A stretch of 36,916 nucleotides of DNA. It comes from a virus. The notes under the pieces were generated by a model. It did not search any database. It had not been told where the DNA came from and saw nothing but the letters and a program-made list of their open reading frames with translations. The stretch spans positions 1 through 36,916 of the IMG/VR virus record IMGVR_UViG_3300023174_000372. One strand, given 5' to 3'. Shown here in pieces: positions 3,895 to 34,074 of this stretch. Position 1 is the first letter of the stretch. Every line of letters starts with the position of its first letter. A program made the translations under genes and the position numbers.

Positions 3895-4179
3895 ATGTAC
3901 GACAGATTATTAAAATTAAAAGAAGACAAAAAATGGCTTTATTATTTACTATTGTTGCCAATTTTTGTGTTGACAATATTAGAAATATATAATAAATACT
4001 TAGTAAACAGTGGTAAAAATATTATAAAAGATGCTGAAAAGGACGATAAAAAATTGGAAAAAAAACAAAACAAAGCAGAACAAGCTGCTGAATTTCATGA
4101 AGAAAAAGCAAATAAAATAAAAAAAGAATTAAAAAATATTGAAAAGAAAATTGATAAAAATTGGCACTTAAATGAATGA
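3895..4179 (+). CDS. Membrane-anchored coiled-coil protein
   Basis: This 94-aa protein has a short basic N-terminus, one transmembrane segment at about residues 15-33 (WLYYLLLLPIFVLTILEIY), and a long, strongly charged Lys/Glu heptad-like helix to the end. This is the general plan of an inner-membrane spanin, or of a membrane-tethered scaffold or holin accessory protein; the sequence alone does not decide between them. A TAGGA ribosome site at 3885-3889 precedes the ATG. The 3' end overlaps the start of the next gene, a CPBP-like membrane protein, by 8 nt (ATGAATGA), so the two are probably translated together. No endolysin gene is visible nearby, which weakens a lysis role. Confidence 0.65.
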   Translation: MYDRLLKLKEDKKWLYYLLLLPIFVLTILEIYNKYLVNSGKNIIKDAEKDDKKLEKKQNKAEQAAEFHEEKANKIKKELKNIEKKIDKNWHLNE

Positions 4180-4717
4180 AGTTATTGAAAAATTTTTTAA
4201 TATTGTAGATATAATAAACTACGCCTATCCTATACTTTCCCCGGTTATTTTTGTATTAGTATTATTATTTGACAGAGAAAAACTGTCCGTAAAGCTGGAT
4301 GGTGTTGCAAAATTTTTGGCTCTACTCACCATAGCTGGTGCGGTTAAAATATGTCTATGGAACGGACAAATGGTAGTATCCAATCCGCACAATATATCAC
4401 TGAGTAACTTTTTGCTTGTATTTCTTGAAGATGCTTTTTATGTGATGGTGCCTTTTTATATCACCAACAGAATGAGTAACCCAAAACATAAGTTTTTTGT
4501 CTGGCTTTTCTTTACTGTAATATTTGGAGTTGCTCATAGATACCAAGGAATTTGGGCTATTTTTGTAACAGCAACATATCCATATTTTATATCTAACAAT
4601 TTTGCAAGAAAAACTTCTTTTGGTACAGTAATGGCTTGTCATTTTTTGTATGATTGTTTTGTAACTTTTCTGCCAAAGCTTAATAACTTGTTTGTTTTAA
4701 TAGATAAGATTAAATAA
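4172..4717 (+). CDS. CPBP (CAAX-protease-like) intramembrane metalloprotease homologue
   Basis: This 181-aa protein has about five or six hydrophobic segments. Three polar motifs sit in the order known for the CPBP/Abi family (CAAX prenyl protease 2 type): Glu86-Asp87 in place of the EExxxR pair, FxxxH at Phe118-His122, and HxxxD at His157-Asp161. The family uses these Glu and His residues at an intramembrane active site. The Arg of motif 1 is missing and the second Glu is Asp, so activity is uncertain. The gene is translationally coupled by an 8-nt overlap to the membrane coiled-coil gene, a candidate partner or substrate. CPBP proteins in bacteria include bacteriocin self-immunity and abortive-infection factors. 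A role in superinfection exclusion or membrane-protein processing here is speculation. Confidence 0.6.
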   Translation: MNEVIEKFFNIVDIINYAYPILSPVIFVLVLLFDREKLSVKLDGVAKFLALLTIAGAVKICLWNGQMVVSNPHNISLSNFLLVFLEDAFYVMVPFYITNRMSNPKHKFFVWLFFTVIFGVAHRYQGIWAIFVTATYPYFISNNFARKTSFGTVMACHFLYDCFVTFLPKLNNLFVLIDKIK

Positions 4718-6359: not shown

Positions 6360-7760
6360 ATGTCTTTAAGCAAACAAGATAGAATTGAGCTTTCTTTAAA
6401 ACTTTCAGGAGCAAAAGAAGATATTGCTAACATGGATAAGTTAGCAGAAGTCTTTGAACAAGCCAAGGTTAAGGCTCAACAAAAAGATTCTCCCAATAAA
6501 AAACTTTTAGATGAAAGAACTGCTCTTGTAAATGCTTATCAAAATGAACTGGTTTTTTTAGATGGAATAGTTAGAACACAATTAGTAGAATATATGATCG
6601 TGGACTCGGCCAAAAGGGTCGCCGGAAATCATTTTTTCCCTAACCAGAACAATGTTTCGCTGCCGTCCGTTCCGACAGGGATATGGACAGGTTTTTCGCC
6701 TTTATCAAGAAACTATGCCATAGGTAAAACTCACCTTGAGACATATACCTCTACCGGAAACAGAACAGAACAAAACATTATAGCTGATATAAATGCTAAA
6801 ATAACTTTAATAGAAAGCAAAATAATTGCCTCAAGAGCAACCGGTAAAAAAGGACAAACTACAGGAACTTGTAGTGGGGAAACTCCCGCAGGGTCTGGTA
6901 CTACACAAATTCTGTGTACTACAAAAGGAGGAACCTGGACCCCAGGACCTGATATATTTGTAAATGATACAGATACCCAACAATTGTTAACGGACCTTAA
7001 AACACTAGTTCAAGAATGGGAAAATATATTAAATAGTCAAAAAAGTATTCTGATTTCCATTTCTGACTTAAACAGTTCTAGAAAAACACAGAACTTGAAT
7101 GCCACTACCAATATTGACGACTCCATATCTGTAATAAATAACTGGCAATCTATACAGGATTATGACACGACAACACCTCTTCCTTCAACAATAGCTGCCT
7201 TTAATGCTTTGCTTGAAAGTTATTTTCAACAAACAAAAATGCAACCAACTACCTTGCAACTATTAAAAGATAGACTAACACAAAGACTAGTTTTTGCAAA
7301 TGCAAGAAAAGATCAGTTAACCACGACTTACCTTGGTTCTATAACACAAGATATGAGCGAAGGAGAAATATACTCAACAACTGGTCTTTATGGAGAAAGA
7401 ATGCTTTTTTTGGACATGAGAATAAATGCTTCCGGTGGAACTTTAACGGAAGTAGTTAGTTTTTCTAATTCCAAAGGTGCCCAGGAAAAAACTAAAAAGT
7501 CCATTAATATTGCAACTCAAGGAGCGGGATTGGTTATGAAAGCAACCAAAGCTTCTGCTCCAGGAATTGACACATTTTATATGAATTTTGAAGATCTTTC
7601 AGGATTTGCTGTTGGAGATAGCGTTTATTTAGTGGCAGATGACCAAGAAGAGCTTTTAGGTAAAATTCAAGAAATAATTGGGAATAGAGCAAAACTTTCT
7701 TTTTCAGTTCCTAAGAAATATACTACCATAAACAATACCAGGATCTACAAGATTTTATAA
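6360..7760 (+). CDS. Putative virion structural protein with disulfide-type loop
   Basis: This 466-aa protein is not assigned to a named family. The first 85 residues are helical and probably coiled coil. Residues 85-130 are Gly/Pro/aromatic. Another helical region follows, interrupted by a Gly/Thr-rich loop at 160-200 holding the only two cysteines (Cys171, Cys186) in a C-x14-C then GGTWTPG pattern. The C-terminal 60 residues (VGDSVYLVADDQEELLGKIQ and onward) form a strand-rich module. Its place between the spike region and the gp25 fusion suggests a baseplate or tail component. An AAAGG ribosome site precedes the ATG by 7 nt. Its stop codon abuts the stop of the reverse gene 7755-8318 (TTATAA). 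Confidence 0.6.
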   Translation: MSLSKQDRIELSLKLSGAKEDIANMDKLAEVFEQAKVKAQQKDSPNKKLLDERTALVNAYQNELVFLDGIVRTQLVEYMIVDSAKRVAGNHFFPNQNNVSLPSVPTGIWTGFSPLSRNYAIGKTHLETYTSTGNRTEQNIIADINAKITLIESKIIASRATGKKGQTTGTCSGETPAGSGTTQILCTTKGGTWTPGPDIFVNDTDTQQLLTDLKTLVQEWENILNSQKSILISISDLNSSRKTQNLNATTNIDDSISVINNWQSIQDYDTTTPLPSTIAAFNALLESYFQQTKMQPTTLQLLKDRLTQRLVFANARKDQLTTTYLGSITQDMSEGEIYSTTGLYGERMLFLDMRINASGGTLTEVVSFSNSKGAQEKTKKSINIATQGAGLVMKATKASAPGIDTFYMNFEDLSGFAVGDSVYLVADDQEELLGKIQEIIGNRAKLSFSVPKKYTTINNTRIYKIL

Positions 7761-8318
7761 AGAGTTATCTTTGTAATCCATCATTTCTTCAATGTATTTA
7801 TTGTAATGATTATAATGACACCAATCCCCTACGTCATTTGGATGCATTATACTACTCGGACACCCGTCTGAAAAGTAGTCTTTCTTGGGTATTATTCCTA
7901 ACCACCTTATAAGGTAGTCTATGTAGGCATTTACACTGTTTGACTCAGACATATCATGCGTGTGAGATCTGTTTCTGATACAATGCTCTAATTCATGATA
8001 AATTAAAAACTTTTTAGATAAAAATCCTGATCTATCCCAGTATTTTTTATCAACCTCAATTTCAAGCTCGCCATTTAAAAGCCAGTAACATCTGCCTATC
8101 GTAGCAGCCTCTAGGTCGGTAAAATTTATTGATAAATTTTTAATTCTTTTACCGTATATATTCTTATAAGATTTATTTTTAAAATTTATAATGTTGTAAT
8201 ACTCTTTAATGTAGGGACTAAAAGCTGGATCTATCCCTCTATTTTTTGGGAAAACCCTAATGGGTTCGCTTGAGCAAGAGGAGGTAAAAATTAAAAATAA
8301 TATTATTAGTTTATTCAT
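7755..8318 (-). CDS. Predicted lipoprotein with zinc-metalloprotease signature
   Basis: This 187-aa protein starts with a short signal peptide (MNKLIILFLIFTSSC) whose Cys15 is a plausible lipidation site, although Thr at -3 is not the best lipobox residue. The mature part has HELEH at residues 108-112, matching the zinc-protease motif HExxH, with His119 or His121 as a possible third ligand. An SSIMHP stretch at 155-160 resembles a metzincin-type Met-turn. It would act outside the inner membrane, anchored by lipid. An alternative start at 8339 adds seven residues; 8318 is preferred because it gives an 8-nt start/stop overlap (ATGAATAA) with the upstream membrane-protein gene, as elsewhere in this genome. 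It is reverse-oriented among forward tail genes. Possible roles are lysis, envelope remodelling or host-surface modification. Confidence 0.65.
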   Translation of the reverse strand: MNKLIILFLIFTSSCSSEPIRVFPKNRGIDPAFSPYIKEYYNIINFKNKSYKNIYGKRIKNLSINFTDLEAATIGRCYWLLNGELEIEVDKKYWDRSGFLSKKFLIYHELEHCIRNRSHTHDMSESNSVNAYIDYLIRWLGIIPKKDYFSDGCPSSIMHPNDVGDWCHYNHYNKYIEEMMDYKDNSL

Positions 8319-8463
8319 CTTTGATAATTTTAAACTCATTTCTTCTTTTACGGTAAATACTTGCTCTGTTTTCTTTTTTAATCTTTATAAAAAACACAAC
8401 ATAACAAGATATTATTATACTAAAATGTAAAAAAAATATACTAAAAAACAATATGTTATTCAT
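8311..8463 (-). CDS. Small membrane protein (50 aa)
   Basis: A 50-codon frame fits exactly between its two neighbours, overlapping the upstream basic-protein gene and the downstream lipoprotein gene by 8 nt each (both ATGAATAA). The product has one hydrophobic segment at about residues 3-27 (NILFFSIFFLHFSIIISCYV) followed by a basic tail (IKIKKENRASIYRKRRNEFK). That charge distribution suggests a cytoplasmic C-terminus. A TM protein gene that overlaps a lipoprotein gene recalls the spanin pair layout, but here the tail is short and basic, not a long periplasmic helix. No function is assigned. The symmetric overlaps are the main support that this short frame is real. Confidence 0.55.
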   Translation of the reverse strand: MNNILFFSIFFLHFSIIISCYVVFFIKIKKENRASIYRKRRNEFKIIKDE

Positions 8464-8620
8464 TTATTAACTGTTTTGCAGCCTTTTTATTATTTTTTCT
8501 GTCATAATCCATTTTTGACTTCATTGCATATCCAGGAGGAGCTACAGGAATGCGGGGTTTTATTTTTTGCTTAAGCTTTTTTCTACGTAACCTATTGATT
8601 TTCCGTTTAGCCTTTCCCAT
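8456..8620 (-). CDS. Small, highly basic protein (54 aa)
   Basis: This 54-aa protein begins MGKAKRKINRLRRKKLKQ and is about one third Lys plus Arg, with a central PRIPVAPPGYAMK stretch. It could bind nucleic acid or acidic membrane lipids, but no family is recognised. The ATG at 8620 is chosen over upstream in-frame ATGs because an AAGAG ribosome site lies just before it and a GATATTAT box lies about 18 nt upstream on the same strand. It is the first gene of a three-gene reverse cassette and is coupled to the next gene by an 8-nt overlap. It diverges from the gp25-fusion gene at 8697. Confidence 0.6.
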   Translation of the reverse strand: MGKAKRKINRLRRKKLKQKIKPRIPVAPPGYAMKSKMDYDRKNNKKAAKQLINE

Positions 8621-8637
8621 AATACAACTCTTTTTAT

Positions 8638-8645
8638 ATAATATC
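8638..8645 (-). promoter_or_regulatory. Candidate -10-like box for the reverse cassette
   Basis: Reading on the reverse strand, GATATTAT followed by ATAA lies 17 nt before the ATG of the basic-protein gene. It matches the second box of the forward motif, but no AATCTTTA box lies at the usual distance, so this may be a different promoter class. It is 9 bp from the forward motif at 8655-8678, so the 76-bp region holds two divergent signals. Confidence 0.35.
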
Positions 8646-8654
8646 ATACAATTC

Positions 8655-8678
8655 AATCTTTATTATATACGATATTAT
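8655..8678 (+). promoter_or_regulatory. Candidate phage promoter, bipartite AATCTTTA-N8-GATATTAT
   Basis: AATCTTTA at 8655-8662 and GATATTAT at 8671-8678 are separated by exactly 8 nt. The same pair with the same spacing occurs at 11393-11416 and 20616-20639, each time in the short region before a large structural gene. Here it precedes the LysM-gp25 fusion gene by 18 nt. Confidence 0.55.
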
Positions 8679-8683
8679 ATAAT

Positions 8684-8687
8684 GAGG
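8684..8687 (+). promoter_or_regulatory. Ribosome binding site that sets the start of the gp25 fusion
   Basis: GAGG ends 9 nt before the ATG at 8697. It overlaps an in-frame ATG at 8682, and the longest frame would begin at 8550 inside the reverse gene and upstream of the promoter motif; both are therefore unlikely starts. Confidence 0.55.
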
Positions 8688-8696
8688 CAATTAAAA

Positions 8697-11339
8697 ATGT
8701 GGAATAAAATAACCAAGACGATAGCCGACAATCGGGAAGGGATTATAGAAGGTGTTACAGGTAAAAAAACCCCTGTTGTAGCAAAGTCAGAAAATGCCAG
8801 CAAAGTACCTCTTCCTTGGAAAGATAACAAAGATATTTTTTTCCCACCAATAGAAATTTTCCCTGGTAGGGCTAATTATTTATTCCCGTATAGATTAATT
8901 GTGGTAGAAATCGAGACTGATAATACCGCAGATGGTGGAGTTAAGTACAAACCCGTAAAAGGAAATACCGGCCAGGTTGAGAGAATTTTTGATGAATCCA
9001 ACACCGGGGGGGTTCAGTACAGAATTAGCAAACCGGAAGGATGGGTTTTCACTCTTCCAATTACCCCTCAACAATTATCTATAACTGATCAATTTGCAAT
9101 CAATACAACCGCTACCATGAGAGGTGTTGTTGAAGAGCATAATGGTGTAAAATTCAAAATGATATCAGCTTCAGGAACCACGGGAATATGGCCGACTCGA
9201 CCAGGTGGTGACGATAATAATACCCCAGGTCTGTCATTATTTGGAGGATCTTTTTCTGCCTTTGAGGGAGCGAAAAATGCATGGAAAAATATTTTAGATA
9301 AAAAAACTTTAAGTCGAACAAATCCTTTAAATTTAACGGATAATGGGACTCTTTCCAATAGTGCATCACAAACCGGATATTACCAAGCTTTAGTGTTGCA
9401 GCAATTTCTTGAACAGTATGCAATAGCTAAAAAAAATCCTGAAAATAAAAATTGGAGGCTTGTTTTTGATTGTCCTAAAACAAACGAGTCTTTTGTTGTT
9501 ACACCCGTACAGTATAATGTCACAAGAAGCCAAAGAAGTCCCGGTGAGTTTTTATATAACATGCAATTTAAGGCATGGAAAAGAATTGATTTAAAAAGTA
9601 CTTCAAAAAGTGTAACCAAACCACCACAAAAAATTACTCCAAACTTTTTTCAAAAAGCTGTTTCTGCACTAGACAATGCCAGAAGCTTTATGAGCGCATC
9701 TTTAAACGTGGTCAAAGCCGTAAGAGCTGATTTTAGACAGATTTTTGATCAAGTAAGGAAGGTTACACTTCTTTATAAGGATTTGGGAGGATTGGCATTT
9801 GCTGTTTCGGATTTGCCCAATCAAATCGGTAAAGACTTAAAATCATCAGTTAAAGCCATGTCTGGTGATCTTGCTCAAGGAAGTGCTTCTTTTGATGCAG
9901 CGTTTAAAAAACTACCTAGTGCTTCAAAATCTGCTGCAAATAAAACAAAAAATATTGTAAAATCTATAAAACAAAACAAAGAAGTAAACGAAGGCGTTTC
10001 CGATGAGCAAGTTTCGGCAGGATTGCTTGGGAAAGGAGCAAAAGACGCAAACGATGCTTCTAGTTTAAATAATGTTTTTGATGAGCCTGAAGCATCTTTT
10101 GATTTCTTCAATGCTATTTCTTTGGATACTCTTACCTTAACTCCGCAACAATCTATTGCAATTCAAGAAGAAATTGAAAAAAATTCTTTAATATCAATCG
10201 AAGAAATAAAAGAAGTATCTAAGAACTTACAATCTCTGGCACTAGATATAAGCAACAATTTTGGAGCAGGAGATGAAAATTTTTCAAAAATATTTAACAG
10301 ACCAGCCCCAAAGGAAAGAGCTGTTCCTATGACTCTGGAGGAGTTTGAATTAATTTTAGCATTAGAAAATGCTATTCTTGAATTAAATCTATCAACCGCT
10401 ACAAGAGAATTAGATGATTCTAGACGACAAAATCCTCTAGAGTATGTGGGCGGATTAGCTGATGATTCGGGTATTCCTTTTAATTCTGAATCAACCGCTA
10501 AATTTTTGGCCCCGGTTCCTTTTGGTTTAACCATTGAACAAATTTCTGCCAGATATTTGGGAGATCCTGATAGATATAATGAAATCATAACTTTAAATGG
10601 ATTGAGATCACCTTATATCGATGAGAATGGTTTTTCTTATCAATTTTTGTCAAATGGAGATGGTAGACAATTTAATATTTCTTCAAAAGAAAATTTGTTT
10701 ATAGGTCAAAAAGTACAGCTATCTAGTAACGAAGTCCCAATGTTCACAAGAAAAATTACAGGAATTGAAAAAATATCTGATACCAACTATTTAATAACTG
10801 TTGATGGAATAGATGATTTACATTTGCTAAAAACAGTAGACGCAGCAAAAGTTAAAGCATTTTTGCCCGGAACTATAAATAGCCAGAATCAAATTTATAT
10901 TCCTTCGGATCAATCAGTCACAGAAGAAGCACGTACCTATGATATTCCTTTTTTAAAAGAAGACACATTAACAGGTTTTTCTAAGGTGGACTGGTTGATG
11001 GACGAAAACGGAGATCTTGTGATAAATTCCTTTGGGGAGATGGCGCTTGCCAATGGCACGACAAATCTTGTACAGGCACTAAAAATGAAAATAATGACAC
11101 AGAAAGGAACGCTTCTTTCTAACCCTAATTTTGGATTAGGACTTGCTCCTGGCTTAAGCGTGTCAGAAGTAGACATAGAAAATGTCTTAACAGATTTAAG
11201 AGACATGGTATTGCAAGATCCTAGATTTTCTGGTATTGAAAATATAGAATTAAATATTTTACCGCCCACCGTATCTATAAGTATAAACGCTGTTTTAGCG
11301 AACGGGAAAGGTATATTCCCTATTAATTTTTCTTTGTAA
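8697..11339 (+). CDS. Baseplate protein: tail N-terminal domain, LysM-like domain and gp25-like domain in one chain
   Basis: This 880-aa protein combines parts that are usually separate. Residues of about 60-320 resemble phage tail/baseplate proteins with a FTLPITPQQLSITD strand pattern and a VVTPVQYNVTRSQRSPGEFL stretch. Residues 320-600 are helical and Ala/Ser/Lys-rich, a likely spacer. Residues 607-641 (LTIEQISARYLGDPDRYNEI, then NGLRSP) match a LysM-type fold. The C-terminal 120 residues, from DWLMDENGDLVIN through ALKMKIMTQKGTLLSNPNFG, match the gp25/GpW baseplate family, which bridges sheath and wedge. The gene has its own candidate promoter and ribosome site. It is followed by baseplate J, the usual partner of gp25. 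The start at 8697 is supported by GAGG; a longer frame from 8550 runs through the reverse cassette. Confidence 0.78.
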   Translation: MWNKITKTIADNREGIIEGVTGKKTPVVAKSENASKVPLPWKDNKDIFFPPIEIFPGRANYLFPYRLIVVEIETDNTADGGVKYKPVKGNTGQVERIFDESNTGGVQYRISKPEGWVFTLPITPQQLSITDQFAINTTATMRGVVEEHNGVKFKMISASGTTGIWPTRPGGDDNNTPGLSLFGGSFSAFEGAKNAWKNILDKKTLSRTNPLNLTDNGTLSNSASQTGYYQALVLQQFLEQYAIAKKNPENKNWRLVFDCPKTNESFVVTPVQYNVTRSQRSPGEFLYNMQFKAWKRIDLKSTSKSVTKPPQKITPNFFQKAVSALDNARSFMSASLNVVKAVRADFRQIFDQVRKVTLLYKDLGGLAFAVSDLPNQIGKDLKSSVKAMSGDLAQGSASFDAAFKKLPSASKSAANKTKNIVKSIKQNKEVNEGVSDEQVSAGLLGKGAKDANDASSLNNVFDEPEASFDFFNAISLDTLTLTPQQSIAIQEEIEKNSLISIEEIKEVSKNLQSLALDISNNFGAGDENFSKIFNRPAPKERAVPMTLEEFELILALENAILELNLSTATRELDDSRRQNPLEYVGGLADDSGIPFNSESTAKFLAPVPFGLTIEQISARYLGDPDRYNEIITLNGLRSPYIDENGFSYQFLSNGDGRQFNISSKENLFIGQKVQLSSNEVPMFTRKITGIEKISDTNYLITVDGIDDLHLLKTVDAAKVKAFLPGTINSQNQIYIPSDQSVTEEARTYDIPFLKEDTLTGFSKVDWLMDENGDLVINSFGEMALANGTTNLVQALKMKIMTQKGTLLSNPNFGLGLAPGLSVSEVDIENVLTDLRDMVLQDPRFSGIENIELNILPPTVSISINAVLANGKGIFPINFSL

Positions 11340-20686: not shown

Positions 20687-23600
20687 ATGAGCGTAAGAAG
20701 ACGACAAAACTGGCTTGGACAACAAAGAGTTGATGCTCCACATCTTAAATCTATAGAATCTGCTGTTTCTAATGATTTCGATGAGTTAATTAAAGGTCTG
20801 GTTATTGGCGAAAACAAAAGCTATGTAGTCAGAGGTTTTGAGATAAGTATGCCTGGGGCGATATTATCGTCAGCAACAGGTCTTCAATTGTTGGTAGAAA
20901 ATTCTGCAATTCTTCACGGAGCTTCTGACGAGTCTGGGACTTTTTACACCATTCCAACAGGCACCGATCCTGAACTGCTAAACCCTACCGTCAATCCTAG
21001 AGTGCAGGGGTCTTTTACTCCAAGCGCAGACAACTTTATCGGTATAGAGTTTTTAAGAAACATAAATGACAGCACAACTGATCAGGTTAATTTTTGGAAT
21101 CCCACTTCTAACATAGAGTTTACAAAAACAGTCCCTCTTGCAATTACTTTAGATTATAAAATAGTAATCAATACAACACTAACCTCAAATGTGTTACCAA
21201 TTGCTGTTGTTAAAACTAATTCATCAAACAATGTAGATTCTATCACAGATCGTCGTCCTATGTTATACAGACTGGGCACGGCAGGGTTTTCAAATCCAAA
21301 TCCTTTCCATTTATACGACTGGTCAGAAGGTCGTACTGAAAATTTTTATACCTCTTTTTCTTCTACATCAAATCCTTTTGCTGGAGGTGATAAACAAATC
21401 GCCACAATGAAAGATTTTTTTGATGCCATAATGACCGAGTTTAAGCTTTTAAAAGGAACGCCATTTTGGTATTCAGAAAGTGCTGGCTCTATATCTAGAT
21501 TGCGTCAAGATATTGCAAACATGGCTTTTACAGGAAAAGGGAATGTAATTCACGGTGCGTTTGACTTCCAAGGTATACAGACTGGGATGACCACAAGTGT
21601 TATTATTAAAACTATTGACACTAGTGTTTCGGGTCCTATTACGCTGACTGCAAATGGTGTTGATACTATTAACACAATTATTTCCAATCATAATCTTGCA
21701 AATCCAACTAATCAGGTTTATCTATATAGCGGGAATGGTTTACAAGTTCCTTCCGCAAATATTACATTAGAATCTAAAGCAGGTCAACTTAACTGGACGG
21801 ACGATTTATTTTTAAACTTTATTGGCGGAAGATTAAGATATCGTATTTTAAAAAATGAAGCTAGTAATCATATAACTTTGTCTAATAATCAAGTTGCTTA
21901 TGTAAAACTTGTTCGTGGAGTGAATATTGTTCCAAATATTGAATTCAGTCAAACATCCAATATTGTTAAATCAGTAGGGGGAGTTATATGGACCACTGAT
22001 TTACAACCCGGTGACTTTATAAAAGATGCCTCTAAAGGGGACGAGTTTTATTATCAAATCGCTTCTGTAGATGTTGGTGGATCTCAGGTTACTTTAACAC
22101 AACCCTATCAAGAAACTAGTACAGGTTTACCTGGTATTAATGCGCAGTATGCTTTTGGTGTTTATGAAACAAATTCTGCCCCATCTTCTGACAGGCATAT
22201 TAAAATATTAGACAGAGGAAGTGTTCCGTTTGGGGAGGACTACTTTTGGCTATATTATAGACAAGATGAATTATTGGGATCTATTGCCAAAATTTATGCA
22301 AGGATTCTGGGCGGCCAAGAATTACAACAAGGTGAATGGCAACAAGTCTCAGACAATACAAGCGAATCAGTACTTCAATATATTGGATCGCCTAGCGAAA
22401 GTGACATCGATCCAAATTATGCTGTGCTGGCCGATAATGCTAAATCTGGCACCACAAATTACAACACATCAAACGGAGAAAATCTTACCGCAAGAATCTC
22501 TAAGATAACATCAATGGTAGCCGATAAGGCTCAAGATAAAACAATTAAACTTGTTTCTGATCATACGTACGCTTATAACTCAACAAATGGTGCTTTACAA
22601 GAAGTTTCTTTTAGTGGAGGTTCTGGCACTGCTACTGTAGTCATGCCTAGCTCCGCCGATAATGGGTCTATTGTTCTATCTGGCAATTTTTCTTTGGGTG
22701 TTAATCAAGTTGCTTATTTTAATGTAACAAGAAACGGTGGTTTTGTTTATGCAGGTCTATCGACTTTAATTATTTCTAACATCTCCTCAGTTCCTTTAGA
22801 TGAGAACGTATTTATTTTTGCATACAGACTTAATGATACAAATGTTCATTTATGGAATAATCAGGTTCTTTTAGAGGGTTCTTCAATTGCACCATCTGTT
22901 TTAAGAAACCAGGTTCAGCAGAATAAAACGATAAAATTAGTTAAAGGCGGAACATGGTCATGGGATCTTGTAAGTAATAAACTTACAAATAGTTCTTCTG
23001 CATACATACAAGTTGCCGGTCTTTCCGAAAATGTAAACCAAATTAACGCACAGTCAATAACACTTTCCGCTGATGGGGAATGTGCATATATTGCACTAAA
23101 AAGAACATCTGGCAGTTCTATTTTAACAGTTAGTACAGCAAACATTTCATCCGTTCCTCAAAATGACGATATATTTATTATAGCCAGAAGAGTTGGCGAC
23201 GATGTGATTGTCGGAACAAATTCTTTTGCTTTAAAAGATGGGGAATTTTTAGAATTAGATGGCGCTCTTGCTGAAATAAACAGACATCATGATCAGTTGG
23301 CAATATTACCAACTTCTCCAATTGGCACTAGAGTTAAAATACTAGGGTCTGATATTTTAAAATTAAGTGGATCAAAAATTAGTTTAGAACAAAAAAAATT
23401 ATTACTATCTTTTGAAGGGGTAGAAATTGATTTTGGAACTGGCTATATATATGAGCTTGATGGTGTAACTCCGTTTTTAAGCGGTGCAAATAATTTTACA
23501 CCTTTTTCTTTTCCAACAAATTCTACCGATTATTTTTATTATTCTATTTCATTATTACCAAATACTGTACAGCCCGACAATACTATCTCTGGTCAAATAT

Positions 23601-26152
23601 TAGTAATTCCTTCAACTAGTTCTGATGCTATTTTAGAAAATGCTCCCAAAGCACCTTTCCCTAGTTCAGGAATTAAGTTAGGGAATGTTTATGTACAAGG
23701 AGATAGTTTTGAATTTTTTAATGTGGGAGGATCAGGCTTTGATTCAGGCGTAAATGTAATAATCGAACAATCTGACGGCAAAGTAATTGTTGGGGGTAGT
23801 TTTTCTGATTATAATGGAGTTACAATCCCTAAAATTCAGGATTATATTTTAATAAGATTGAATACCGATGGCAGCCCCGACCTTGGTTTTAGCACAGGTA
23901 GTGGGGCTGAAGGTAGAATATATTCAATAATTCAACAAACTGACGGCAAGTTAATTGTTGGCGGATCTTTTATTACTTATAACGGTATTACCGTTAATCG
24001 TATTGTGCGGTTAAATTCTGACGGCAGTATTGATTCCAGTTTTAATACTGGAACAGGTTTTAATTCTTCGGTAAGATCTATTGTACTACAATCCGATGGT
24101 AAACTAGTTATTGTAGGTGGTTTTGCTACTTATAACGGTATTACCGTTAATCGTATTGTGCGGTTAAATTCTGACGGCAGTATTGATTCCAGTTTTAATA
24201 CTGGAACAGGATTTAATAATATTGCAACCTATATTATTCAACAATCCAACGGCCAGTTTGTTGTTGGTGGTGGTTTTTCTACCTATAATGGTGTTACTAC
24301 CAACGGAATTGTAAGGCTGTATGCTAACGGATCTAAGGATATTACGTTTAATACAGGAACAGGACCTAATGGTGTTGTAAATTCAATTGTTGAACAGTCT
24401 GATGGCAAGATAGTTGTTGGAGGAGTTTTTGGCACTTACAACGGTACAATTGTTAATCGTGTTGTAAGACTAAACCCTAACGGTAGTATTGATTCTAGTT
24501 TTAATACTGGAACAGGGCCTGGATTAGGTTTTAGCTCTGTTGTACAATCTATTGTTTCACAACCTTACGATAAAATAATTGTTGGTGGTAGTTTTTCTAC
24601 CTATAATGGTGTTACTGTTAATTATATTGTGCGGTTAAATTCTGACGGTAGTATTGATTCTAGCTTTAACACTGGCACAGGATTTGATAATACTGTATAT
24701 TCTATTGCCAAACAATTAGATGGCCGAGTAGTTGTTGGTGGTGATTTTTTAAACTACAACGGAACTCCTACCGGTTGTATAATAAAATTACAAACCACAA
24801 ACATTTCCAGTATTGATTATGAAAATATTATTCAATTAGGTGTTGGAGGATCTGGCTCTGGCGGTATAGGAGATGCTAATAGTTTTACTGAAAATCTTAA
24901 ACATAGACTTATAAGTTCTTATTATGAATATGTAACACCTGTTGTTTTTGAAATAGATGAAGAAAATTTAACAGAATCTGCTACTGCTAGTTACAGCATT
25001 GTAGACGGTACTTATAAGTTCTCTTTATCAGGTCAAAATTTTATATCAAAAAATATGTTTGATACAGAATTTTTACAAAATGATCACGATAGTCGCAGAG
25101 TAGAGTTACACGCAGAATGGCTTGATAGTTCAGCAATAGATGAAAACGCTTCTTATGAAGTGTCATTAAATGGAATAGCCTACCAACCGATATCTATGAC
25201 CCGTCAAGGTCTTTCTCAAAAATTTACTGGTGATATTTTATTAAATGTACCTGTTTCAACCAGTGGCTATGTGCTGTCGTCTATGTCTGGAAATATTGGT
25301 ACAACAGAAAAAACAGAAAGTTTTTCTATAACAAATAAAATAGCGGTTAATAAAATATCTTTAAACATTGTCAAAACTGGGAATCCTCTGGGATCTTACA
25401 CAATAAGCATAGTAGAAGATAATCTAGGAACTCCTACAGGAAATGTTGTTTACAGTAAAATAGCTTTATGTTCTAGTTTAAGTACAGGCAATAATTCAAT
25501 AATACTTTCTAATTTTAGAAATATATTAATAAGCGATAAGATTTATTGGGTAGTTATAAAAGGTGATGCTGCTTATAATTCTTCTTATAATTCTTCTACT
25601 ACAAAAATTGCCATAAGCGGAAGTGTGTTTTTAGAAGGACATGTTTACGACTTAAGGGTTAAAATTATTTCATCGGCAGCGAATAAAAAGTTAAAAGCAT
25701 TTGGTATATTTTATGACGAGCATGTAGGAGATGTTGTAACAGGAATACAAGCTCTGCAAAAATTTGTATTCAGTGGAGATTTAAACACAACATCGTTCAC
25801 ACTTACAAGATTTTTACCAGATCCTGATAACATGAAAGTTTATGATATTAAAACAGGACAGGTTTACAGATATCCTGCATTTTCAATAAGTGGACACACG
25901 GTAATATTTCCTGCGGGAACTTTTTTAGCGCCGGGCGAAACGGTTGAATTAATTTTTGATCAATCTCAAGGAAGTGGTTTTGATCACTCCGATCAAAACG
26001 GGAATCTACTAGCCGCCAATCACTTGGGTTCAACCGACCCTACGATCGACAAGAGTTCGCCTGGGCGTGGAATTTTCTTAAAGAAACCCAATGGTGAATT
26101 AGTAGAGGTTTGTGTGGATGATGCTAATAATATAGTGATATACTCAGTTTAG
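20687..26152 (+). CDS. Giant tail fibre/adhesin with a delta-60 (DUF5122) propeller
   Basis: This 1821-aa protein probably attaches to the baseplate by its N-terminal 270 residues and reaches outward to the host. It begins MSVRRRQNWLGQQRVDAPHL, in the style of fibre/baseplate adaptor proteins of large phages. Two copies of a domain starting TIKLV lie at about residues 619-730 and 748-846. Residues 1022-1370 hold seven repeats of about 51 aa with QSDGKxxVGGxF and RLNxDGSIDSSFNTGTG, the delta-60/DUF5122 repeat, enough for a seven-bladed beta-propeller. A long beta-rich region follows, and the end carries GRGIFLKKPNGELVEVCVDD. The propeller could bind a receptor or glycan. It has its own candidate promoter. 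Two repeats are identical at DNA level over 83 bp. Confidence 0.75.
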   Translation: MSVRRRQNWLGQQRVDAPHLKSIESAVSNDFDELIKGLVIGENKSYVVRGFEISMPGAILSSATGLQLLVENSAILHGASDESGTFYTIPTGTDPELLNPTVNPRVQGSFTPSADNFIGIEFLRNINDSTTDQVNFWNPTSNIEFTKTVPLAITLDYKIVINTTLTSNVLPIAVVKTNSSNNVDSITDRRPMLYRLGTAGFSNPNPFHLYDWSEGRTENFYTSFSSTSNPFAGGDKQIATMKDFFDAIMTEFKLLKGTPFWYSESAGSISRLRQDIANMAFTGKGNVIHGAFDFQGIQTGMTTSVIIKTIDTSVSGPITLTANGVDTINTIISNHNLANPTNQVYLYSGNGLQVPSANITLESKAGQLNWTDDLFLNFIGGRLRYRILKNEASNHITLSNNQVAYVKLVRGVNIVPNIEFSQTSNIVKSVGGVIWTTDLQPGDFIKDASKGDEFYYQIASVDVGGSQVTLTQPYQETSTGLPGINAQYAFGVYETNSAPSSDRHIKILDRGSVPFGEDYFWLYYRQDELLGSIAKIYARILGGQELQQGEWQQVSDNTSESVLQYIGSPSESDIDPNYAVLADNAKSGTTNYNTSNGENLTARISKITSMVADKAQDKTIKLVSDHTYAYNSTNGALQEVSFSGGSGTATVVMPSSADNGSIVLSGNFSLGVNQVAYFNVTRNGGFVYAGLSTLIISNISSVPLDENVFIFAYRLNDTNVHLWNNQVLLEGSSIAPSVLRNQVQQNKTIKLVKGGTWSWDLVSNKLTNSSSAYIQVAGLSENVNQINAQSITLSADGECAYIALKRTSGSSILTVSTANISSVPQNDDIFIIARRVGDDVIVGTNSFALKDGEFLELDGALAEINRHHDQLAILPTSPIGTRVKILGSDILKLSGSKISLEQKKLLLSFEGVEIDFGTGYIYELDGVTPFLSGANNFTPFSFPTNSTDYFYYSISLLPNTVQPDNTISGQILVIPSTSSDAILENAPKAPFPSSGIKLGNVYVQGDSFEFFNVGGSGFDSGVNVIIEQSDGKVIVGGSFSDYNGVTIPKIQDYILIRLNTDGSPDLGFSTGSGAEGRIYSIIQQTDGKLIVGGSFITYNGITVNRIVRLNSDGSIDSSFNTGTGFNSSVRSIVLQSDGKLVIVGGFATYNGITVNRIVRLNSDGSIDSSFNTGTGFNNIATYIIQQSNGQFVVGGGFSTYNGVTTNGIVRLYANGSKDITFNTGTGPNGVVNSIVEQSDGKIVVGGVFGTYNGTIVNRVVRLNPNGSIDSSFNTGTGPGLGFSSVVQSIVSQPYDKIIVGGSFSTYNGVTVNYIVRLNSDGSIDSSFNTGTGFDNTVYSIAKQLDGRVVVGGDFLNYNGTPTGCIIKLQTTNISSIDYENIIQLGVGGSGSGGIGDANSFTENLKHRLISSYYEYVTPVVFEIDEENLTESATASYSIVDGTYKFSLSGQNFISKNMFDTEFLQNDHDSRRVELHAEWLDSSAIDENASYEVSLNGIAYQPISMTRQGLSQKFTGDILLNVPVSTSGYVLSSMSGNIGTTEKTESFSITNKIAVNKISLNIVKTGNPLGSYTISIVEDNLGTPTGNVVYSKIALCSSLSTGNNSIILSNFRNILISDKIYWVVIKGDAAYNSSYNSSTTKIAISGSVFLEGHVYDLRVKIISSAANKKLKAFGIFYDEHVGDVVTGIQALQKFVFSGDLNTTSFTLTRFLPDPDNMKVYDIKTGQVYRYPAFSISGHTVIFPAGTFLAPGETVELIFDQSQGSGFDHSDQNGNLLAANHLGSTDPTIDKSSPGRGIFLKKPNGELVEVCVDDANNIVIYSV
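22544..23225 (+). repeat. Tandem duplicated fibre domain
   Basis: Two protein domains start KTIKLV at 22544 and 22931 and share strand patterns: NQVAYFNVTR or ECAYIALKR, then NISSVPxxxxxFIxAxR. The similarity is clear at protein level but low at DNA level, so the duplication is old. A shorter related stretch (ITLSNNQVAYVKLVRG) occurs near 21865. Confidence 0.5.
23975..24057 (+). repeat. Perfect 83-bp direct repeat, copy 1
   Basis: This stretch is identical to 24128-24210, one repeat period (153 bp) downstream. Identity including silent positions points to a recent duplication or gene conversion inside the propeller. Confidence 0.85.
24128..24210 (+). repeat. Perfect 83-bp direct repeat, copy 2
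   Basis: Second copy of the repeat at 23975-24057. The two sit in frame, so recombination between them would remove or add exactly one 51-aa propeller unit. Confidence 0.85.
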
Positions 26153-31923: not shown

Positions 31924-32907
31924 TTATTTCCCATCCTCTTTGATTATATACCTGATCGCTTTTTTTGTCAAGTCATTAGTTTGAGCTAAATTGAATCGTA
32001 AAAATTTATCATTACCCATACTGTCCATTTCTACGGTTTTAATATTTAATTTATCCAATAACCTAGAAGTGTAGGGAGATGCCCATACTGCGTAAAACAT
32101 GCCGTTTTCTGGTACGGATTGACCATCAAACAAATAGCATATTCGGTCAAACATTTCCCTGTTGTTATTTACACGGTAGCGTGATGCTCTCATAAAAGAT
32201 ACAATATCAGTATTTTTTATTAAATCTAGAACAAAGCTTTGAGAAAAATATGAAACAGAGCATGTGTCGTACATATTTTCTTCTTTAAATAAGGAATAAT
32301 CCTCGTCATTGTTTGTGGCTATCCATCCAATTCTTGCGCCTGTTATTCCGAAGCATTTACTAAAAGATCCACAATTAACCCGATGGTCCGGTTTTACAGG
32401 AATGGTGTTTATAAAAACCGAGTTATGGTAAACACTATCCCATATGATATTATTGTGATTATCTGTGTATAACAATAGATCACCCAAAGGGTTTGACGGA
32501 CTATCTACTATTGCTAAGGATTTTTTTTCACCAAGCTGTATTTCGTGATCTCTGTATAAACCCATCTTTTGCTGATAATTATTTTTTTTAATAATACTGG
32601 GGTAAAATGGAAAGTAATACTTGTGAGTGTAGCATATACTATAACCGTGCCTGCGCTGTAACGATCTTAGCACAATATTAACAGCACTGGTTGTGCCGTT
32701 GGTTATTATTAAGTGCTTGTAATCTATGCCTGTTTCTTCTTTCAAAAATTGCTTGGTAAATTTAACCAAGTCCGGATCTCCCTCGTAGGACTGATACCTT
32801 ACAGCATCAATGTCTACAAAAGAATAATGCTTTTTTTTATAATAGTGTTTAAGAGCCTCTCTTACGCAGTAAGGCTCCCCCCAACAAAATTTAAACTCTT
32901 CTGTCAC
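31924..32907 (-). CDS. PLP-dependent aminotransferase, class I/II (fold type I)
   Basis: This 327-aa enzyme shows the full set of class I/II aminotransferase marks in order: TNGTTSAVNIVL at 69-80 (cofactor phosphate region), SNPLG at 138-142, the Asp157-x-x-Tyr160 pair in WDSVYHN, the cofactor Lys184 in SFSKCFGITGARIGW, and Arg304 in FLRFNL for substrate carboxylate binding. It should transfer amino groups between an amino acid and a 2-oxo acid; the substrate cannot be told from sequence. Length is slightly below the usual 350-400. The start is GTG, overlapping the upstream stop as GTGA, with GGAG upstream. It sits in the replication operon, where a role in base modification or metabolic reprogramming is conceivable but not shown. 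Confidence 0.85.
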   Translation of the reverse strand: MTEEFKFCWGEPYCVREALKHYYKKKHYSFVDIDAVRYQSYEGDPDLVKFTKQFLKEETGIDYKHLIITNGTTSAVNIVLRSLQRRHGYSICYTHKYYFPFYPSIIKKNNYQQKMGLYRDHEIQLGEKKSLAIVDSPSNPLGDLLLYTDNHNNIIWDSVYHNSVFINTIPVKPDHRVNCGSFSKCFGITGARIGWIATNNDEDYSLFKEENMYDTCSVSYFSQSFVLDLIKNTDIVSFMRASRYRVNNNREMFDRICYLFDGQSVPENGMFYAVWASPYTSRLLDKLNIKTVEMDSMGNDKFLRFNLAQTNDLTKKAIRYIIKEDGK

Positions 32908-33365
32908 TGTTTTTTCTCCAAACTTTTGTCTAAATCTTGAATCATTTTTTTTAAATATTCTAAAGAAAAGTCTTGTTTAATTTTATTAACTTTTTCATTA
33001 ATTTGTGTAATTTCTTCTACAGAAATATTGTAACTATTTGAAATTTCTTGTACTTTTTCATCAAAATACTTTTTGTAATCTTTCTCAAATTGCTCCGCAT
33101 GCACGGCCTCTTTTACAAAAAAATCTTTAACAAAGGTGTCATGCTTTGGGCTAAAATAGCACGTACGACAAACGTGTGTTTTACTGCCAGGTTCTATACT
33201 CATGTTTATCCAGGCGTGAGGTCCTTTGCATTTGTTTTTTTCTAAGTCTTTAATTTTTGTATTTATTTGTATTCTTGATTTAATGTTTATATAAAGAACC
33301 TTAGCAAAATATACAAATAAAATTAAATTTATTAAAATTATAATGACCAGAATAGTTTCAGCCAT
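32904..33365 (-). CDS. Membrane-anchored zinc-binding protein
   Basis: This 153-aa protein has one N-terminal transmembrane segment (residues 3-25, ETILVIIILINLILFVYFAK). A putative zinc site follows, made by Cys46 and His50 (CKGPHAW) with His64, Cys66 and Cys69 (HVCRTC). The C-terminal 75 residues form a long, charged helix likely to be coiled coil. The start at 33365 is preferred over 33386 because it has GAGGA 5 nt upstream and gives an 8-nt overlap (ATGGCTGA) with the upstream ClpP-like gene. It also overlaps the aminotransferase gene by 4 nt. Function is unknown; coupling to both neighbours suggests linked expression. Confidence 0.62.
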   Translation of the reverse strand: MAETILVIIILINLILFVYFAKVLYINIKSRIQINTKIKDLEKNKCKGPHAWINMSIEPGSKTHVCRTCYFSPKHDTFVKDFFVKEAVHAEQFEKDYKKYFDEKVQEISNSYNISVEEITQINEKVNKIKQDFSLEYLKKMIQDLDKSLEKKQ

Positions 33366-34074
33366 TTTTATCCTCAATCTTGTCAATTAAATTAAGTTCT
33401 AAAGCAGTCTCCGCATCTATTATAGTATCAAAATTTAACATCTCTTGAAGTTCTTTTCTTCCGATTAGAATTTTTTTATGCTTGGCATTGCCCGAAGGAA
33501 TCTCTGACTGTTTTCCTATTAGTATTAAATATTTTTCTAGCGTTATTTTTTTATCGTTCATTTTGTCAAGATATATGTCTTCCATTATGTTATCAAATTT
33601 CTTGGTTTCACTGGCCCATTTGTACATTGTTTTGGTATGATCATGTATACCAAAACTCCCGTAATGTATCATAATTCTTGAATGTTTTGTCATAATTCTT
33701 TGATCAGCCGATTGCAAAATTATTGACCCCATGCTCATAGCATGTCCGTAAACCCTTACAGTTACATGGTTTTTACAATTAGCAATTGCATCATAAATAG
33801 ACATCCCGTGGTAGATCTCTCCTCCGATATTGTTCATGATAATATTAATTGGCTTATCACCTTTAATAGAAGTAGCGTCTTGATTGTCCAAAATATGCAG
33901 AGCCTTGACCACTGTTTCGGCCATGCGAAAATCTGTGCCGCTTTCTCCTTCTTCGTCAGAACTACTCATACTTCCCATATATATAGTTCGGGTAGGAAGA
34001 TAGATGTGGTTGTCCATAAACTGATCAACATCATCTTTTTTAAACTTGTGATAAACATCTAAATCATCACTCAT
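33358..34074 (-). CDS. ClpP-like serine protease (peptidase S14)
   Basis: This 238-aa protein aligns by eye with ClpP. TRTIYMGS at 28-35 corresponds to the ClpP N-terminal strand and NNIGGEIYHGMSIYDAI at 81-97 to the SPGG region. The catalytic Ser is Ser114 in GHAMSMGS, the His is His137 in SRIMIH, and Asp216 in DTIIDAETALELNLID sits where ClpP has its catalytic Asp, so the triad looks complete. In phages this fold serves as head maturation protease or as a regulatory protease. Here it lies in the replication block, away from any visible head gene, so a prohead role is less evident. It follows the primase gene by 2 bp and overlaps the next gene by 8 nt. Confidence 0.8.
   Translation of the reverse strand: MSDDLDVYHKFKKDDVDQFMDNHIYLPTRTIYMGSMSSSDEEGESGTDFRMAETVVKALHILDNQDATSIKGDKPINIIMNNIGGEIYHGMSIYDAIANCKNHVTVRVYGHAMSMGSIILQSADQRIMTKHSRIMIHYGSFGIHDHTKTMYKWASETKKFDNIMEDIYLDKMNDKKITLEKYLILIGKQSEIPSGNAKHKKILIGRKELQEMLNFDTIIDAETALELNLIDKIEDKNG
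33371..33375 (-). promoter_or_regulatory. Ribosome binding site that sets the start of the membrane zinc protein
   Basis: GAGGA on the reverse strand ends 5 nt before the ATG at 33365, inside the end of the ClpP-like gene. Confidence 0.5.

Follow-up and report, generated by a model that had tools for sequence, protein, structure and literature searches.

The window analysed in this study, a 36,916-nt IMG/VR virus record (IMGVR_UViG_3300023174_000372; GC content about 0.34), carries a reverse-strand gene whose product is predicted to be an exported lipoprotein zinc protease of the Pfam family PF18894. This protease is a conserved gene across a large phage clade and no curiosity of one window, and the three-gene cassette in which it lies is, as such, a local variant. 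The envelope-modifying or exclusion class appears to be the best functional class for the protease, and superinfection exclusion is, by analogy with known phage lipoproteins, the leading candidate for its role. We tentatively propose, with confidence somewhat short of even, that an exported, acylated PF18894 zinc endopeptidase made from a non-late promoter would cleave host-envelope proteins in mid-infection, with exclusion or remodelling as the likeliest benefit.

Layout of the reverse unit and its variable operon

The first-pass annotation had described a reverse three-gene cassette encoding a basic 54-aa protein, a 50-aa membrane protein and a lipoprotein with HELEH and SSIMHP stretches, joined by identical 8-nt overlaps. 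All of these elements are present in the sequence (Table 1); both internal junctions read ATGAATAA, and the two stretches of the lipoprotein contain H108, E109 and H112, and M158, respectively. The cassette is real and is not an artefact, and its lipoprotein gene is conserved. Moreover, its elements go beyond what sequence chance would be expected to yield, since the basic gene is under purifying selection when compared with four relatives (pN 0.07-0.17, pS 0.31-0.61), the TM gene has a pN of 0.28 versus a pS of 0.43-0.47, and the lipoprotein has conserved homologues. An upstream ATG at 8339 would give an alternative lipoprotein of 194 aa. The stops of the lipoprotein gene and of the convergent forward gene at 6360-7760 overlap by 6 nt, so that the unit fills the gap between the latter and the divergent baseplate gene (8550-11339), which shows 30% identity over 84% to Myxococcus phage Mx1. 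No Rfam family and no tRNA was found in the window.

Table 1. Features of the reverse unit and its flanks, in window positions
Feature	Position	Strand	Basis
Basic protein, 54 aa, first gene of the unit (MGKAKRKINR...LINE)	8456..8620	-	ORF; homologues; pN much lower than pS
TM-A, 50 aa, single TM, predicted C-in	8311..8463	-	One hydrophobic stretch; homologues
Lipoprotein metallopeptidase gene, PF18894 PhageMetallopep, 187 aa	7755..8318	-	Pfam; conserved homologues; AlphaFold
8-nt overlap ATGAATAA, basic / TM-A	8456..8463	-	Sequence
8-nt overlap ATGAATAA, TM-A / lipoprotein	8311..8318	-	Sequence
Signal peptide MNKLIILFLIFTSSCSSE, lipobox-like SSC, Cys15 the predicted acylation site	8262..8318	-	Sequence; Cys kept in homologues
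Putative zinc-binding HELEHCIRNRSH, HExxHx6H (H108, E109, H112, H119)	7962..7997	-	Four residues invariant in alignment A1
Met158-His159 of CPSSIMHP, Met-turn-like	7842..7847	-	Met nearly invariant in A1, invariant in A2 (Met114)
Promoter-like element GATATTATATAA, inside ATGATATTATATAA, 5' of the unit	8634..8645	-	Sequence
Late-promoter-like motif CAATCTTTA, directed towards the divergent baseplate gene	8654..8662	+	Motif analysis in relatives

When the three-gene set was sought in relatives, the small genes were recovered only in part of the family, most relatives having the lipoprotein without the small genes or a TM partner. The basic protein is 68-85% identical in L002-L007 and L009 and also occurs, by appearance, in L050, L053, L056, L059 and L083. 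Homologues of the membrane protein, TM-A, were found in L003 and L009 (48% identity) and at further loci, a set similar to that of the basic protein, and they end in a conserved stretch such as RKKFKLVKGDK. TM-A and the lipoprotein are separated by one or more other genes in L041-L043 and L050. The protein encoded between them in L041 and L042 is another small TM protein, which has a zinc-ribbon-like CxxC, and in L050 a PIN-PhoH gene (E 8e-49) lies between them inside the operon; PIN-PhoH look-alikes, by sequence, occur in L052 and L059. Because other genes intervene in L041, L042 and L050, the direct TM-lipoprotein overlap of the window is lineage-specific and one state of a variable operon, and it probably arose by loss of an intervening gene. 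The basic and TM proteins are probably lineage-specific operon mates on the cytoplasmic side. Furthermore, ATGAATAA recurs in L042 at the basic/TM and small-protein/lipoprotein junctions, which marks the identical overlaps as an ordinary way of coupling small phage genes; junctions of 8 nt and similar sequence also occur in L041 and L050.

The lipoprotein and its relatives

The window lipoprotein matches PF18894, "Putative phage metallopeptidase", with an E value of 3.3e-6 (27.6 bits against a cut-off of 23.7). The match spans positions 63-130 of the 134 in the profile, or about half of its length. Single-sequence searches with the lipoprotein found no relative in viral contigs, GenBank phages (tblastn) or NCBIfam, and relatives were therefore sought via the neighbouring baseplate gene. 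The resulting homologues share 24-61% identity, and PF18894 was matched at E <= 0.1 by all 21 members of alignment A1 and all 19 of alignment A2, which are mutually homologous (E 7e-39). W94, H108, E109, H112, H119, D151, C153, C167 and Y175 are invariant in the 21 sequences of A1, and C113 and M158 are nearly so. HExxH is intact in 48 of 48 distinct baseplate-linked copies, and in 43 of the 44 copies scored the third histidine falls at position 12, L047 being a one-residue variant. The HExxH core is common to the window protein and the family, whereas the window subfamily is set apart by a signal peptide, in most cases a lipobox, and by conserved cysteines and CPxSIM. Together with the confident models described below, the family match and the intact HExxH support the earlier reading of the lipoprotein as a zinc protease. 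The module had also been called possibly undescribed, which holds in part: the protease family is already in Pfam, and PF18894 is a named family without a described or tested function. A literature search found no paper on this lipoprotein subfamily. Matches to 7tm_1, MAG1140 and tRNA-endonuclease were set aside as composition noise.

The protease gene lies directly upstream of the baseplate gene and inverted to it at 26 of 38 related loci, several of the others ending too near to judge. The profile search for the HExxH domain, made with A1, recovered conserved PF18894 relatives encoded in 140 viral stretches; among the 80 listed of these 140, a divergent baseplate gene adjoins the protease in 53, and it does so in 3 of 3 loci from bacterial genome contigs. 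Mx1 gave no PF18894 match. That dozens of divergent phage genomes keep the protease gene at the same position indicates that it is under strong selection. Additional copies were also seen. A tandem PF18894 lipoprotein at L106:6488-7036, in which HQLGH replaces HELGH, is likely an inactive paralogue beside an active copy; L103 has two PF18894 copies in a row; and the phage of L028 encodes, at L073 on the same contig, a second PF18894 lipoprotein that is shorter and lies at a distance from the baseplate gene.

The AlphaFold models of the window lipoprotein (pLDDT 88.8, pTM 0.81) and of a compact 150-aa phage relative (pLDDT 89.7, pTM 0.83) are confident, with metalloprotease domains as the nearest structures. 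In VIA-align, MMP-11 ranked first for both models (Z 9.3 and 9.4), followed by other matrix metalloproteases and snapalysin, and the top rows had an rmsd of about 3 A over 112-116 residues. Foldseek returned weak zincin matches of mixed type (selecase, DPC-repair protease, snapalysin and BlaR1), at E 0.006 or worse. A zincin fold is well supported by these models, and the compact fold is predicted to be closest to matrix metalloproteases and snapalysin. Metzincins such as these rank first for the predicted fold, and they and the phage lipoprotein both have a conserved methionine after the zinc motif. However, metzincins have HExxHxxGxxH, whereas the window lipoprotein and 43 of 44 scored copies have HExxHx6H, which is one residue longer and in which the glycine is not conserved. 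Metzincin kinship is thus likely on the strength of the models but not proved, because six residues instead of five separate the second and third histidines, the glycine is absent, and solved structures in the PDB gave no sequence match to the lipoprotein (phmmer included).

The window lipoprotein has the signal sequence LIILFLIFTSSC, which ends in a lipobox-like TSSC. A cysteine stands at the signal end in about 41 of 48 distinct baseplate-linked copies, and in seven copies (L079, L082, L085, L090, L097, L102 and L108) the signal or anchor has no such cysteine; these exceptions were judged by eye, as a lipobox regular expression had undercounted. Since about 7 of 48 copies lack the lipobox cysteine, lipidation is not essential to the family. 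Export appears to be general, and lipidation seems common yet not universal.

The profile also matched 68 of the 290 genomes sampled from a Bdellovibrionales MAG's phylum, 12 of 58 genomes from the phylum group of a Deltaproteobacteria MAG and 4 of 148 from that of a Saprospiraceae MAG. The lipoproteins encoded at the inspected chromosomal loci contain HELGHCxLxRxHD and S-M motifs, and their genes mostly have ordinary chromosomal neighbours. A tree of 81 sequences shows strong clustering by label (8 changes, against 32.6 after shuffling), with weak deep branches, and most chromosomal copies are apart from the baseplate-linked copies. These chromosomal homologues suggest that the hosts of the phages may lie among Bdellovibrionota and allies, and the window's own virus may have such a host.

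Promoter motifs of the protease and baseplate genes

In the relative G001, TGATATTA is enriched 5' of genes (9 versus 0.5 expected). CAATCTTW lies upstream of 12 of 52 structural versus 0 of 56 replication/metabolism genes in six genomes (p 7e-5, with related copies taken as independent), the gene classes being assigned by blastp to annotated Mx1 proteins. Between the two divergent genes, this motif occurs on the protease side in 1 of 48 cases and towards the baseplate gene in 28 of 48 (p 5e-10, again counting related copies as independent). It was seen upstream of structural genes in G001, G002, G003, G005 and G007, and it is seemingly specific to structural genes in the Mx1-like clade. A scan for the late motif and an ATG at fixed spacing gave almost nothing because the spacing varies, and TATAAATA, of the T4 late type, was uninformative. 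TGATAT precedes 23 of 48 protease genes, in most cases at 14-17 nt from the ATG, where shuffling expects 5%. TGATAT does not separate gene classes (12 of 56 replication/metabolism versus 11 of 52 structural genes), and the term "non-late" therefore refers to the absence of the late motif and to the PhoH neighbour. The safe conclusion from these motifs is that the protease and baseplate genes use different promoters, the protease gene being without the structural-gene motif. Early or middle expression of the protease is favoured, since that motif is absent and a PhoH gene is a neighbour.

Candidate functions of the protease

In the mechanism proposed here, the phage would direct synthesis of the protease from a non-late promoter, and the enzyme, exported by Sec and lipidated, would come to lie on the periplasmic side of one of the envelope membranes. 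The lipoprotein would then cut one or more host-envelope proteins while infection proceeds, and the benefit would be exclusion of competing phages or envelope remodelling through proteolysis of receptors or tethers, rather than a terminal lysis event. The promoter contrast and the PhoH neighbour are the reasons for preferring exclusion or remodelling to lysis. A broader form of the proposal is doubtful but worth stating, namely that in a large clade of Mx1-like tailed phages, many of whose members would likely infect Bdellovibrionota and their relatives, a fixed locus provides a lipidated HExxHx6H zincin that is made before the structural genes and remodels the host surface. Llp of phage T5 is a superinfection-exclusion lipoprotein. 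Ltp of phage TP-J34 is another (PMC3952083). The window protein is likewise a phage-encoded lipoprotein predicted to act on the host envelope, whereas the superinfection-exclusion lipoproteins described so far are not known as proteases. If this broader proposal is true, exclusion or takeover of the envelope would work through a protease, a form that has not been described for phages, and this protease would have kin in a family of chromosomal lipoproteins of the hosts. A lipid-anchored phage protease at work in the envelope would provide a functional clue to its chromosomal relatives in Bdellovibrionota, and it would be an accessible enzyme with which to study how large phages deal with the surface of their hosts.

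The protease might instead be a lysis accessory that severs tethers in the periplasm or outer membrane as infection ends, replacing or helping spanins. It is a phage-encoded lipoprotein, and in unrelated contexts it has neighbours such as an SLT transglycosylase (L098) and an M15 peptidase (L113); however, 47 of 48 protease genes are without the late motif that is frequent on the baseplate side, a PhoH gene is an operon mate, and the gene is fixed in the baseplate block and not in a lysis cassette. The Mx1 endolysin had no blastp match in six relatives, and lysis genes were not identified in this phage group. In Listeria, the pair Mtz/Tim, a phage-derived metzincin and a lipoprotein, enhances phage lysis (PMC8235301). 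This system likewise involves a phage-derived, lipoprotein-linked metzincin acting on the cell envelope, but its host is Gram-positive, its protease is secreted and has a separate TIMP-like lipoprotein partner, and the related phage genes sit after holin and lysin. Since Mtz/Tim illustrates that a phage-derived metzincin can help lysis, a lysis role is kept as an unlikely explanation of some weight. The layout had also invited comparison with two-component spanins, in which a small TM gene likewise overlaps a lipoprotein gene (PMC6139136); TM-A would then be the i-spanin and the lipoprotein an o-spanin with an added protease domain, and one A1 member has a marginal match (E 0.007) to a PHROG named Rz-like spanin. 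Rz and other i-spanins are N-in/C-out with a periplasmic domain (PMC6139136), whereas the TM-A tail, which has 24 residues and a net charge of +6 in the window (21-34 residues and +5 to +12 in ten homologues), is predicted by the charge rule only to be cytoplasmic (C-in) because of its positive net charge. In addition, the lipoprotein is a predicted folded enzyme, most relatives are without a TM partner, and where TM-A is present other genes usually intervene. The spanin analogy therefore fails on the predicted topology and on a pairing that is not conserved, and a spanin pair is highly improbable.

A protease carried by the virion or tail, opening the envelope at entry, would account for the fixed place between two tail-region genes, but the signal peptide and lipobox direct the protein out of the cytoplasm, the site of tail assembly, and the gene lies on the opposite strand with a different promoter class, which makes this role improbable. 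Other kinds of envelope proteolysis are unlikely, although they merit attention: the enzyme might disable a periplasmic host defence, a stress sensor or a predation-related protein, or might be a host-like house-keeping protease shared with Bdellovibrionota. The homologous chromosomal lipoproteins in the phylum of the Bdellovibrionales MAG agree with this explanation, as do further envelope-directed proteases encoded by relatives (a subtilase lipoprotein beside DnaE and exported ClpP-like proteins). Against it, no substrate or defence link was seen, and the tree, despite weak deep branches, parts most chromosomal from baseplate-linked copies. Exclusion or remodelling of the envelope during infection accordingly stays the preferred, tentative reading of the protease.

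Several other genes were observed in the relatives and in the window. The subtilase-domain lipoprotein (PF00082, E 6e-16) is encoded directly after the DNA polymerase gene in the relative G002 (L128:6444-7250, forward), and the ClpP-like proteins with signal peptides are encoded at L137:6714-7706 (reverse) and L127:8040-9011 (forward), each preceded by a TGATAT element. In the window, a 181-aa multi-TM protein (4172-4717, forward) matches Rce1-like/CPBP marginally (E 2.4e-4; 21.8 bits, with the cut-off at 22.4) and is possibly a second membrane protease among the tail genes. The window also contains a ClpP-like gene (33358-34074, reverse), a class I/II aminotransferase gene (31924-32907, reverse; PF00155, E 1.4e-14) and a gene for an 1821-aa fibre-like protein with seven DUF5122 beta-propeller repeats (20687-26152, forward), which is followed by a collar-domain protein and similar genes.
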